From an uncultured Clostridia bacterium (GTDB lineage: Bacteria > Bacillota > Clostridia > Oscillospirales > Ruminococcaceae): a stretch of 37,250 nt of DNA. Below, piece by piece: positions 6,298-16,671 of this stretch. The stretch spans positions 1 through 37,250 of the forward strand of contig CANQPB010000022.1 of assembly GCA_947625615.1 (NCBI GenBank), written 5' to 3'. The first letter of the stretch is position 1. Every line of letters begins with the position of its first letter. Under the pieces are notes generated by a model. The model was not told the origin of the DNA and ran no database searches. It was given only the letters and a program-made list of their open reading frames with translations. The position numbers and the translations under genes were made by a program.

Positions 6298-8586
6298 ATG
6301 GACATTATCAAAAGGATAACCGCGGCGGTTCTGCTTGCGGCGGTCGTGATCTCGGTGCTTCTAAGCGGCTGCTCCGGCGGCGCCGACGTAAACACCGACA
6401 GACCCCTCGGCACCGAGACTTTTGTCGCCACCGAGGAACACCCGTTTCGGCGCGAGGTATCTCCCGAGCAGCCTATGTGGATAGTCCACATAGATTCCTG
6501 GGTGAACGCCGATCCCGAAAAGCTGATCGACGCCATACCTGAGGACATTCGCCCCTACGTCGTCTTCAACATCTCTATGTCGATAAGCTGGAACGAGGAC
6601 GAGCAGCGCTTCACCCTCGTTGAATACGGCTACGAGCTCGCAAAATCCTGGCTCCGCGCCTGCGCCGAAAAAGGCGTCTGGACGATGATTCAGCCGGCGA
6701 GCGGCGGCCCCTGCCATTTCCCCGACTACGACCCCGCCGAGATAGACTACGACGACACCCTATTCGGCGAATTCTTCCGCGAATACCCCAATTTCCTGGG
6801 CTTCAACTATGCCGAGCAGTTCTGGGGCTTTGACAACTACGTCAAGGGCTTCCCCGTCACCGCCGAGCAGCGCTATATCCACTTCACCGGCCTTTTGGAG
6901 CTCTGCCACAAATACGGCGGCTACCTTGTAGACAGCTGGTGCGGCAACCAGTGGGGGCAGTCTATAAACCCGCTCGCGATGATAAAGCGTATCCCCGAAT
7001 TCGAGGAGGCCGCCCGCCTTTACAGCGACAACTTCATTCTGCTTGAAAAATATACCCAGACCGGCTACCAGAGCGACATGGAGAGCCTTGTTTTGGGCAC
7101 CTATCTTTCCGGCTACTGCGGAAACTTCGGTATCCGCTACGACGACTCCGGCTGGACTGACGAGAGCGGCGAGGGCACCGGCGGCTATGTTTTGGCTACC
7201 GGCCTGACCATAAACTTCGAGAGATTTGCCTTAAACGGCATGACCGTCATCGACGGCCCCGAGCTCACCTGGGTGGACGACATCTTAGAGGACGAGCCGG
7301 AGGTTGACAAGAAGGGCTACACCATAAGAAAATGGGCGCCCACCGACCAGTTCACCAACGTAATGGTGGATATGTTCCGCAAGGTCGTCAACGGCGATTT
7401 CAGAATACCCACCCGCGAGGAGGTAATCGCCCGCACGAAGCTTATCCTCGTCAACGACGTCGAAACGGGCAACGACGACAGCAAATACTGCACCCCGAAG
7501 GACTTCTTCGAGGGCGTCTACAAGATGGAGAACGACGGCTATTTGCAGGACAACCACTCGTTCTACAAATCCTCGGGGCGCTACCCCACGCTGCCCACCA
7601 CCGCCGGCTTTGCCGATCCGAAATATGAGCAGCTGTTTGAAAAGGTAATCTATAAGTCGGAGTATAAAGATCTCTGGCCGACGGTAGAGGACAAGGTGGC
7701 CGATCTTGAGGAGATGTTCCCCGAGCAGTATACCGGCGACGCCTACGCGGGCAGATTCGAAAACACATGGGTCACCTACAACCCCTATAAGAGAAGCCAG
7801 ACCGCCAGCTCGACGATAGACCTTAAATACAACACCGCCGAGAGCATAGGCGTTTCATATCCCCGCTACTCGACAGGGCTTATCCGCGAATATTCCGATC
7901 ACATAGATATCTACCTCAATAACTTCAACGAGGATTCGCCTATCCAGAAAAACGACGACGTCATAACCGTTGCCGGCGCCTCCGAGCAGCCGACCTATGA
8001 ACTCACCGACAGGGGAATAGGCACCATTAAGCCCACCGTCACCGAGGAATGGGCGAACGGCGTATACACCCTCGTCGTAAGCCACAACGGCCCCGTCGAG
8101 ATTACGGTAAACTGCTCCGGCACCGCGACAGGCAAACTCACCGACTACACCGACGCCACCTTAACCCCGCCCGACTACCCGCCGATTTATGTCGGTCAGC
8201 TTCAGCACGAGGGTGAGCTCTTCGACACCTTAAACGTCGAGCAGACCGTTAAAAACGGCGCCGGCGCGAATGTGCGCAACTACCTCGGCCAGGGATATCT
8301 CATCATGGGCATGACAAAGGACACGAGCGCCCGCGATTCGGTCATGATATATCAGCCCGGGGAATATAAGCTCTCGCTCAGATACCGCGCGGGCGGCGGA
8401 AACGCGGTTATTTACGTCAACGGAAAGAAGGCAGGCACCGTTGAGCTTAACGACACCGACGGCGAATGGGATATTTCCGAGCTTGAGGTTAAGCTCAAGA
8501 AGGGCGAAAACACCGTCGAGATAAAAATAGCCGAGGATCTGCCCTCGAAGCTTTACGTCGACTGCTTCACCCTCGACCTCATTTAA
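6298..8586 (+). CDS. Lipoprotein glycoside hydrolase, family GH98
   Basis: This is a 762-residue extracytoplasmic endo-glycosidase. Members of GH98 include endo-beta-1,4-galactosidases that free blood-group A/B trisaccharides, and xylanases. The N-terminus is a lipoprotein signal with lipobox LLSGC, so Cys25 should be lipid-modified and the protein tethered outside the membrane. The GH98 catalytic region starts at about 60 (MWIVHIDSWVNADPEKLIDAIPEDIRP) and includes FNYAEQFWG, with Glu173 a candidate catalytic acid. A GH98 C-terminal region starts near 490 (TYNPYKRSQTASS). A beta-sandwich resembling CBM6/35 (about 665-762, with YRAGGGNAVIYVNGKK) closes the protein. The ribosome site is CAAGGAGG. 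Galactosidase or xylanase activity cannot be chosen from sequence alone. Confidence 0.8.
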   Translation: MDIIKRITAAVLLAAVVISVLLSGCSGGADVNTDRPLGTETFVATEEHPFRREVSPEQPMWIVHIDSWVNADPEKLIDAIPEDIRPYVVFNISMSISWNEDEQRFTLVEYGYELAKSWLRACAEKGVWTMIQPASGGPCHFPDYDPAEIDYDDTLFGEFFREYPNFLGFNYAEQFWGFDNYVKGFPVTAEQRYIHFTGLLELCHKYGGYLVDSWCGNQWGQSINPLAMIKRIPEFEEAARLYSDNFILLEKYTQTGYQSDMESLVLGTYLSGYCGNFGIRYDDSGWTDESGEGTGGYVLATGLTINFERFALNGMTVIDGPELTWVDDILEDEPEVDKKGYTIRKWAPTDQFTNVMVDMFRKVVNGDFRIPTREEVIARTKLILVNDVETGNDDSKYCTPKDFFEGVYKMENDGYLQDNHSFYKSSGRYPTLPTTAGFADPKYEQLFEKVIYKSEYKDLWPTVEDKVADLEEMFPEQYTGDAYAGRFENTWVTYNPYKRSQTASSTIDLKYNTAESIGVSYPRYSTGLIREYSDHIDIYLNNFNEDSPIQKNDDVITVAGASEQPTYELTDRGIGTIKPTVTEEWANGVYTLVVSHNGPVEITVNCSGTATGKLTDYTDATLTPPDYPPIYVGQLQHEGELFDTLNVEQTVKNGAGANVRNYLGQGYLIMGMTKDTSARDSVMIYQPGEYKLSLRYRAGGGNAVIYVNGKKAGTVELNDTDGEWDISELEVKLKKGENTVEIKIAEDLPSKLYVDCFTLDLI

Positions 8587-14822: not shown

Positions 14823-14846
14823 AGCCCCGCTCCTATCTGATTATAC

Positions 14847-14875
14847 ATTGTACCAAAAATCGCGCGAAATAGCAA
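14847..14875 (-). promoter_or_regulatory. SigA-type promoter of the VTC-DUF4956 operon
   Basis: On the minus strand TTGCTA (14875-14870) is followed after 17 bp by TACAAT (14852-14847). It is divergent to the G-tract promoter of the secreted repeat protein. Confidence 0.65.
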
Positions 14876-14929: not shown

Positions 14930-14960
14930 TTGACAAATGCAGCCGGGGGGGGGGTACAAT
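14930..14960 (+). promoter_or_regulatory. Promoter with a G10 tract in its spacer (possible phase-variable switch)
   Basis: A perfect TTGACA (14930-14935) and TACAAT (14955-14960) are separated by 19 bp. The last ten bases of the spacer, 14945-14954, are all G. Loss of two G would give the optimal 17-bp spacing. The next gene starts 32 bp after the -10. Confidence 0.75.
14945..14954 (+). repeat. Homopolymer run of ten G
   Basis: Ten consecutive G directly abut the -10 element. It stands out against the AT-rich flanks and is a slipped-strand mispairing candidate. Its exact length should be checked in the reads. Confidence 0.85.
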
Positions 14961-14991
14961 GTAGGTAAATTAAATTTTGGGAGGAACAGCT

Positions 14992-16632
14992 ATGAAAAAA
15001 TTTTTGATTCTTTTTGTTGCACTCGTTATCGCGGCGACCATGACGGTCAGCCCCGCCTTTGCGGAGGGGAAAACCACGAATGACACCATTGCAATGACCG
15101 TTTCTGCAACGGTAACTTCCGGGACAACTATAAACGTAACTTGGAATGCCGTTTCAGGCGCTTCGTCTTACGATGTTGAAGTCCGCAGAAACAATTCTGT
15201 TGTAAGTCAAAGAACGGGTATAACCGGAACTTCCGTTAGCATTAGCGTCAACGGATACGGCGACCATGTTGTCAATGTTGTTGCGAAGACCTCTACCGGC
15301 GGAATTGCCGGCTCCGGCTCGACAACCGTTAACGTACCCTACTCCTCAACCAATGGCGGAATCGCCGTATACTCAAGCGGCTCTGACACTATTGTTTCTT
15401 GGGCTTCCAGTGCCACGGTGTCGAGCTACTATGTTAGTTGGACGGGACAAGAATCCGGCAACGCCACGGCCACCAATTCCGACACCACATGCTCTTATAC
15501 CATTACCGGCGTAAGCTATGACAAGATCAGCTCCGTCACCGTAAGAGAAGGCAGCGCAAGCGGCGCAATCGTCGGGGTATGGACTGCAAGCTATAGCGGC
15601 GGTGCAACAACCACCGGCGGTGTCTATATCAGCGGCACCACCCTTTACTGGAGCAACCCGACCTATCAGTACTGCTATGTATCCGCCACCTGCAACGGCA
15701 GAACCATTCTTAACAGGCAGTCTGTCGGCACCACCAGCAGCTTCAACTTCGGAAGCTATATCAGTAGCACTTATCTTTACGGCGGCTACCCGATCTACTT
15801 CACCGTCTCCACCGCTTACACCACTATAGGAACCGCCACTTATTATCCCAGTGGCGCTTCTTTGAATGTAACCCTCTCCCAGAATGATGTCACTGTCTCA
15901 TGGAACGCCGTGAATAATGTAACAAGTTACCGTGTAACTTACAAAAGCCTCGCGGAGGGGAGCGCAACGCAAATTCTTGACACAACCGCCACGTCGGTCG
16001 TTCTTCCCCGTCCCGTCGAAGGACTTTATGTCGATGTGAAGTACATCAACAACGGTACGCTATTTGCTATAGGCTCCGCAACAATCGATGCGACGGGCGT
16101 AGTCACCTACGGCGGCGCCAACTATTCCACAATCAGACTGATGGTTGCCGCCAACGAAACAAGCATTACCGCCTCTTGGCTTAGAGACCCCTACGCCACA
16201 AACTACCGCGTAACCTACAAAGGCCTCGCGGAGGGCAGCACGGCAAGCTATTTTGAAACCACGGTCACAACCGCGACATTTTCCCGCCCCGCCGGCGGCT
16301 TCAATATCGAGGTGGGCTTCTATTACAACAACCGATATTACCCGATAGGCGCCGCAACGGTTTCGGAGAGCGGCGAGGTTACCTACAGCGAAAGCGGACA
16401 TATAGAATCCTGCGGAAAGGACGCATACGTCCACTGGACAAAGTGCGACGTCTGCGGCGAAAGCTGGGGCGTTGAGGAGCACGTTTTAGGCGACGACGGC
16501 GTCTGCGAGATATGCCATACAAAACCCGCGGAGACGGGCTCAGGCATTCGCGGCGACCTTAACAGCGACGGCAACGTAACCGTCTCGGACGGCGTTACCA
16601 TGCAGCGCATTCTCGCCGGGCTTGAATCCTGA
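14992..16632 (+). CDS. Secreted Ig/Fn3-like repeat protein with a single dockerin EF-hand
   Basis: This 546-residue exported protein starts at the ATG at 14992, which has GGGAGG eight bases upstream and opens a signal peptide (MKKFLILFVALVIAATM, cleavage near AFA at about 25). Five beta-sandwich modules of about 80-90 residues follow. The last two are clear duplicates: each has YRVTYK-LAEGS, a later R-P-x-x-G, then IG-AT and G-VTY. A Cys/His cluster (about 470-510, CDVCGE, CEICHTKP) may bind a metal. The C-terminus holds one calcium loop of a type I dockerin, GDLNSDGNVTVSDG, and its helix; a full dockerin has two. The middle of the gene is less GC-rich than its neighbours. It probably acts as an adhesin or scaffold-bound protein; no catalytic domain was recognised. 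Confidence 0.8.
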   Translation: MKKFLILFVALVIAATMTVSPAFAEGKTTNDTIAMTVSATVTSGTTINVTWNAVSGASSYDVEVRRNNSVVSQRTGITGTSVSISVNGYGDHVVNVVAKTSTGGIAGSGSTTVNVPYSSTNGGIAVYSSGSDTIVSWASSATVSSYYVSWTGQESGNATATNSDTTCSYTITGVSYDKISSVTVREGSASGAIVGVWTASYSGGATTTGGVYISGTTLYWSNPTYQYCYVSATCNGRTILNRQSVGTTSSFNFGSYISSTYLYGGYPIYFTVSTAYTTIGTATYYPSGASLNVTLSQNDVTVSWNAVNNVTSYRVTYKSLAEGSATQILDTTATSVVLPRPVEGLYVDVKYINNGTLFAIGSATIDATGVVTYGGANYSTIRLMVAANETSITASWLRDPYATNYRVTYKGLAEGSTASYFETTVTTATFSRPAGGFNIEVGFYYNNRYYPIGAATVSESGEVTYSESGHIESCGKDAYVHWTKCDVCGESWGVEEHVLGDDGVCEICHTKPAETGSGIRGDLNSDGNVTVSDGVTMQRILAGLES

Positions 16633-16642
16633 CAAAAAAATA

Positions 16643-16671
16643 AGCAGGGGCTTAAAAACCCCTGCTTTTTT
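16643..16671. terminator. Bidirectional terminator between the repeat protein and ferredoxin
   Basis: AGCAGGGG (16643-16650) and CCCCTGCT (16659-16666) form a perfect stem with an 8-nt loop. A T-run follows on the plus strand, and an A-run on the left gives T on the minus strand, so it can serve both convergent genes. Confidence 0.85.

Follow-up and report, generated by a model that had tools for sequence, protein, structure and literature searches.

That a poly-G tract in a promoter spacer can govern transcription is already known from porA of Neisseria meningitidis and tp0126 of Treponema pallidum. In porA, the loss or gain of one G between the −35 and −10 boxes alters transcription (passages of PMC3899988 and PMC7864442), and shortening the spacing below the optimum abrogates it (the same passage of PMC7864442). 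In tp0126, transcription is best when the length of the poly-G tract gives a spacing of 17 nucleotides (introduction of PMC7864442). The opc gene of N. meningitidis likewise encodes a surface protein controlled by homopolymer length, and sortase pili of the gut commensal Bifidobacterium breve are exported proteins subject to G-tract slippage; the B. breve switches described in the relevant part of PMC9187656 lie within coding sequence, and G-tracts inside promoter spacers are mentioned there as beyond its scope. Genes of gut bacteria are also known to be turned on and off at random by the invertible promoters of Clostridioides difficile and the Bacteroidales, which depend on site-specific recombination (PMC11868660). 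Random surface variation of gut bacteria is mostly discussed as invertible DNA; the gain or loss of a single G in a run escapes inversion searches and is hidden by consensus assembly. Among the listed openly licensed PMC papers, none was found that deals with poly-G promoter spacers in Clostridia or in Bacillota at large.

Here we describe a promoter of this kind in a window of 37,250 nucleotides (the whole stretch of DNA analysed) from an uncultured bacterium of the Ruminococcaceae (Clostridia). The promoter, its gene and the adjoining signals are composed as follows.

14930..14935, + strand: −35 hexamer TTGACA, read from the sequence and common to the class by design of the search
14936..14944, + strand: nine-base part of the spacer ahead of the tract, AATGCAGCC, read from the sequence
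14945..14954, + strand: G10 tract abutting the −10 box, the proposed slippage site, read from the sequence; the same arrangement occurs in 30 promoters of the genus
14955..14960, + strand: −10 hexamer TACAAT, giving a 19-bp spacer, read from the sequence
14979..14985, + strand: ribosome-binding site GGGAGGA, read from the sequence
14992..16632, + strand: exported protein of 546 aa (ATG at 14992) with a signal-peptide-like start, FN3-like stretches and a C-terminal dockerin-like repeat
16642..16667, + strand: terminator-like hairpin 3' of the gene, found as a consensus match

A preliminary description of this DNA had placed TTGACA and TACAAT 19 bp apart with ten G directly before the −10 box, so that two G fewer would give 17 bp; the layout is exact and the arithmetic correct. 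The position of the Gs in the −35/−10 spacer is shared with porA and tp0126 (PMC3899988 and PMC7864442), but porA is a single porin gene of a Gram-negative pathogen and tp0126 an OmpW homologue of a spirochaete pathogen, and the promoter described here is one of eight in the genome of a gut bacterium of Clostridia type. Moreover, most spacers of the class described here do not have the 17 nucleotides that are optimal for tp0126 (PMC7864442). The tract of opc is a poly-C that includes the −35 sequence (PMC7864442), unlike the poly-G beside the −10 box found here, where poly-C spacers are rare. B. breve differs in belonging to Bifidobacterium and not to the Clostridia, and the recombination that drives invertible promoters is a mechanism unsupported at the window locus.

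Tracts of about eight bases or more are long enough to slip, and the G10 tract, a simple repeat between the −35 and −10 boxes, exceeds this length. Its mere presence is weak evidence, because G10 is expected 0.22 times in the window (55% GC) and occurs in 11 of 100 shuffles, and because G8 is not enriched (three overlapping matches versus 2.23 expected). It is the position of the tract, rather than the G10 itself, that stands out in this window: TTGACA-N19-TACAAT with at most one mismatch is expected 0.03 times and was found twice, the copy at the locus being perfect. MerR-type promoters have a spacer of 19–20 bp with a dyad operator inside. Such a promoter was rejected for the locus, as no inverted repeat of at least 10 bases with both arms within the spacer was found there, nor a stable fold of the spacer (z 0.70).

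The product opens with a signal-peptide-like start, which bears out the exported protein that had been proposed downstream. The label dockerin-like is a fair one, albeit weak, with one repeat that scores 12.1 bits against a Pfam Dockerin_1 cut-off of 22.9; a cellulosomal dockerin protein, with a duplicated repeat above that cut-off, was rejected. The repeats, formerly called Ig-like, are better described as FN3-like, since they weakly match FN3 domains of known structure (best E 0.0033). The window also encodes a GH98-family glycoside hydrolase (6298–8586; Pfam 296 bits) as well as GH3 and GH2 enzymes, which would fit a user of host glycans.

A search of the bacterium's own genome for TTGACA-N{3,14}-G6 yielded 28 raw matches, corresponding to 12 distinct sites when counted by hand, and none for the reversed pattern. 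Eight sites have at least 8 G when no −10 box is demanded, and seven of these abut a −10 box while the one on contig C21 lies one base away. With a −10 box required and at least 7 G, eight promoters were retained, namely on contigs C1, C8, C20, C21, C22 (the contig of the window gene), C27, C34 and C35. Their tracts are located at C1:54813, C8:48275, C20:18532, C21:34721, C22:14945, C27:4069, C34:20641 and C35:17284. All eight fit TTGACA-N-G8..10-TANAAT, which again has no reversed counterpart, and the prefix ahead of the tract is nine bases long in seven of them. Ordinary promoters of the same genome mostly have a 17-bp spacing (first 100 of 164). The genome contains 20 runs of at least 8 G (rows collapsed by hand), and eight of these lie between TTGACA and TANAAT, yet promoter spacers make up about 0.2% of the genome; given 164 promoters in 2.17 Mb, a post hoc binomial test puts the probability of this placement at about 1e-16.

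Proteins with a dockerin-like motif follow five of the eight tracts (C8, C20, C22, C34 and C35). Four of these proteins score under the Pfam Dockerin_1 cut-off and the one on C8 has no reported match; the C34 protein additionally has leucine-rich repeats. The C21 tract precedes another exported protein. The gene after the C27 tract encodes a signal peptidase II domain that scores 33.6 bits against a cut-off of 25; with the NCBIfam lspA model its score falls far short of the cut-off. No ORF was called downstream of the C1 tract. Viewed from the genes, a tract is present in four of the eight dockerin-motif genes with inspected upstream DNA, or five of nine including the window gene. On C8, a further run of G11 (48177–48187; L039 778–788) lies 87 bases before the poly-G tract and seems to fall in the 3' end of the gene upstream.

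The paralogue on C20 is 80% identical to the window protein at residues 1–294 and 89% at residues 382–545, and its promoter is built in the same way (TTGACA, nine-base prefix, G10, TACAAT). The two genes share 84.6% identity in the first 870 coding bases versus 48% in the 60 bases preceding the −35 box. The nine-base prefixes match at 3 of 9 positions, yet both genes keep an uninterrupted G10, which may be counted in favor of maintenance of the tract. The paralogue on C13 is more distant (57% identical to the window protein); like homologues in three other genomes (G015, G016 and G023; 50, 39 and 34% identical), it has TTTACA-N17-TATAAT and no G run. The tract may have arisen on the branch leading to the window gene; since the three homologues look closer to the C13 gene, this gain is inferred. 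No closer relative or ortholog of the window gene outside its own genome was found in a whole-genome search of relatives. A tblastn search of the genome collection returned no relatives of the window protein, whereas the whole-genome search did find relatives.

Within the genus, 30 poly-G promoters were found in 16 of 31 genomes, with tracts of G7 to G11 (floor G7) and spacers of 15 (2), 16 (7), 17 (2), 18 (9), 19 (8) and 20 (2) bp, and the reversed pattern is absent from all 31. At the family level there are 46 such promoters in 18 of 395 genomes, again with zero reversed matches; most family genomes therefore carry none. In the genome collection, the pattern matches at least 118 stretches, and the 80 titles listed include gut Clostridia and Bacilli, Saccharibacteria, Spirochaetes, Streptobacillus, Helicobacter, Streptococcus, Blautia and others. 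The class recurs in many unrelated, mostly gut-dwelling bacteria. The relatives were sampled at one genome per species, and many are metagenome assemblies. Spacers of 14–19 bp were allowed in the scan of the collection and of 14–21 bp in the search of the genus. Most loci were gathered with a floor of G7 or G8 beside a −10 box, and the tight position of the tracts near the −10 box is partly made by the search because both were required. In the viral collection, a single stretch with a poly-G spacer promoter was observed (L363).

The spacing of these promoters departs from that of ordinary ones. Among the collected loci, a 17-bp spacer is present in 15 of 181 de-duplicated poly-G promoters versus 66 of 97 ordinary promoters (Fisher 1.9e-25), a comparison that dropped spacers outside 13–21 bp (including two 11-bp cases of the sister genus g86) and promoters whose tract is separated from the −10 box by a base, and in which de-duplication may leave a few truncated copies counted twice. 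The 125 promoters among the matches listed from the collection have spacers of 14 (3), 15 (15), 16 (22), 17 (9), 18 (34), 19 (41) and 20 (1) bp. When tract lengths were shuffled against prefixes in 124 of these promoters, 19.9 promoters were expected at 17 bp and nine were seen, with phylogeny uncorrected. This deficit comes mainly from one cell, the 8-base prefix with G9, which has three cases among the 125 promoters listed, versus 17 and 18 cases of G9 with 7- and 9-base prefixes (p 2.5e-4; phylogeny uncorrected). G9 is the most frequent tract length. The break between short and long runs of G is in part a product of the search, since a floor of G7 or G8 was set for most loci. With 17 bp avoided, most resident alleles seem to lie away from the optimum, the pattern expected of a switch that is low by default.

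The base preceding the tract is C in 133 of the 181 poly-G promoters. When poly-C was allowed anywhere in the spacer, four promoters were found in 3 of 395 family genomes, each with exactly 17 bp, versus 36 promoters with poly-G ahead of the same TATAAT in the family search (hand count). One thought is that keeping the bases beside the −10 box constant at any tract length might account for the Gs on one strand.

Downstream of the tracts, exported products are overrepresented: they follow 117 of 163 poly-G promoters versus 24 of 64 ordinary promoters (p 3.5e-6), as called by a simple hydrophobicity rule instead of SignalP, and with promoters lacking a called ORF omitted (18 of 181 and 33 of 97, respectively). 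In the collection set alone, 78 of the 116 poly-G promoters listed precede an exported product, and in a separate control set of 30 promoters, 5 of 19 called ORFs are exported. The surface-protein target that had been suggested thus agrees with the enrichment of the class, with the signal peptidase II-domain gene and the ORF-less stretch as exceptions. Several members of the genus contain clusters of divergent lipoprotein genes (L325–L340), seven of these 16 stretches having one poly-G promoter each.

Tract length varies among similar promoters. In g86 (floor G5), 20 promoters in three genomes have tracts of G5 to G11 and spacers of 11 (2), 13 (1), 14 (2), 15 (4), 16 (6), 17 (4) and 18 (1) bp; one member, G115, itself covers G7 to G11. 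Seventeen of the 20 precede exported proteins (read by eye), ten of which end in NPDTGR, and others run off the locus. The remaining three, to which both 11-bp spacers belong, precede two permease-like genes and a stretch whose only ORF is short. A permease-like gene, read by eye, has G7 with an 11-bp spacer in one g86 genome (L372) and G9 with 16 bp in another (L245).

When both flanks are at least 87% identical, the number of G differs in six of seven promoter pairs and the length of the prefix in none, the pairs being partly dependent as three stem from one trio of promoters. For instance, L262 and L352, both from genome G274, differ by one substitution on either side of the tract and carry G8 and G10; L163 has G9 and L237 G8; and genomes G003 and G011 have G9 and G7 ahead of a lipoprotein that is 97% identical between them. 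The pair L101/L103, just below the cut-off, is equal with G7 each. At looser cut-offs (28 pairs), the number of G differs in 19 and is equal in nine, and the prefix differs in four. A tract length fixed in all relatives had been named as a sign against switching; this fails for the class (G5–G11), and the locus itself is known from one allele, its nearest paralogue, on C20, likewise having G10. Loss of mismatch repair was rejected as a cause of instability, MutS_I being found in 17 of 18 genomes tested, the own genome included; the exception is G274 (88% complete).

We consider slipped-strand change of promoter spacing the best explanation of the poly-G class, with a probability of roughly 0.7 on the strength of these sequence comparisons. 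The G10 tract would be a slippage-prone element in the spacer of a sigma-70-type promoter. During replication, the tract would gain or lose Gs, shifting the distance between the −35 and −10 boxes and thereby the strength of the promoter. The assembled 19-bp form is predicted to leave the exported protein weakly expressed or off in the majority of cells, because transcription of tp0126 and porA depends on spacing; by this analogy the promoter at the locus should be weak or off, and loss of G towards 17 bp would turn expression up. With at least eight such promoters in the genome, each free to vary on its own, a clonal population would be a mixture of surface states. We infer slippage within populations, its effect on transcription and its usefulness to the cell. 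For the phase variation first proposed for the G10, the architecture, the class-wide length differences and the export bias speak in favor; the single allele at the locus and the identical tract of its paralogue do not.

The strand bias of poly-G over poly-C, the C before the tract, the predominance of G9 and the spacer peak at 18–19 bp among the collection promoters listed would also suit a fixed functional element, in which a G-rich spacer on one strand sets promoter strength or response instead of switching, for example by shifting the optimal spacing to 18–19 bp through an A-like DNA geometry or by RNA polymerase contacts directly upstream of the −10 box. We regard such an element as unlikely, though deserving of attention: the same promoters have a second peak at 15–16 bp, unlike one preferred geometry, similar g86 promoters range from 13 to 18 bp, and near-identical promoters are one to two G apart. 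The concentration of long G runs in promoter spacers of the own genome, the lack of a comparable occurrence of poly-C, the downstream bias to exported proteins and the G10 preserved between the window gene and C20 despite their diverged prefixes make it rather improbable that poly-G is a neutral by-product, arising and drifting by slippage in tolerant spacers with no selection for switching, even if homologous genes can lack the tract and the targets include the signal peptidase II-domain gene and permease-like genes.

Miscounted Gs, with a true spacer of 17 bp, would be conceivable in view of the many metagenome assemblies among the records, where long G runs may be miscounted, and part of PMC9187656 warns that G-tract lengths in databases may depart from the real distribution. 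Miscounting, however, would neither prefer one strand nor depend on prefix length, and the tracts of G115 alone span G7 to G11, for which reasons an assembly artefact appears very improbable. The least credible reading is an invertible promoter, in which inversion at inverted repeats would exchange the −35 sides of two divergent genes. A perfect 11-base inverted repeat (14844–14854 and 14953–14963; 11 of 11 complementary, 98 bases apart) does span the −10 box of the window gene and the −10-like TACAAT of the divergent VTC-domain gene, and TTGCTA-N17-TACAAT was scored on the other strand. But the repeat is largely −10 consensus, the full 11 of 11 recurs in only 1 of 170 poly-G promoters, at least nine matches occur in 21 of 170 (one shuffle gave 11 of 170), and a scan of 25 window ORFs revealed no recombinase. 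A slipped-strand promoter, preferred earlier over an invertible one, remains by far the more probable reading.

Beyond the mechanism as such, the breadth of the class, its fixed strand and its avoidance of 17 bp look new. With even odds, we propose a widespread design for stochastic surface switching in gut Bacillota and some other phyla, in which perfect boxes are combined with a strand-biased G tract set against the −10 box and a prefix that places the usual G9 on either side of the 17-bp optimum, so that the resident state would be weak or off and one or two slips away from on. If so, eight such promoters could give one genome many combinations of surface proteins with no recombinase involved. 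If the class switches, an easily recognised set of exported proteins and lipoproteins of commensals would vary within clones, possibly with a bearing on phage resistance, antibody coating and colonisation.

Two minor observations concern other contexts. Noncoding stretches from four members of the genus (L104, L107, L112 and L113) share by eye a poly-G promoter and also a GAAACCT...CGTC motif, a AAGAAGTG box and a hairpin with a T run; the motif resembles an ECF-sigma promoter. Rfam gave one match, far under its gathering score, for nine loci with noncoding targets, and none for these four. Finally, a G8 on C14 of the own genome (49128–49135; L063 629–636) lies within the part of an exported-protein gene that codes for the signal peptide. 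At the assembled length, a stop follows directly on the tract and an open frame of 789 aa continues beyond it in another frame, which makes this G8 a candidate translational G-tract switch.
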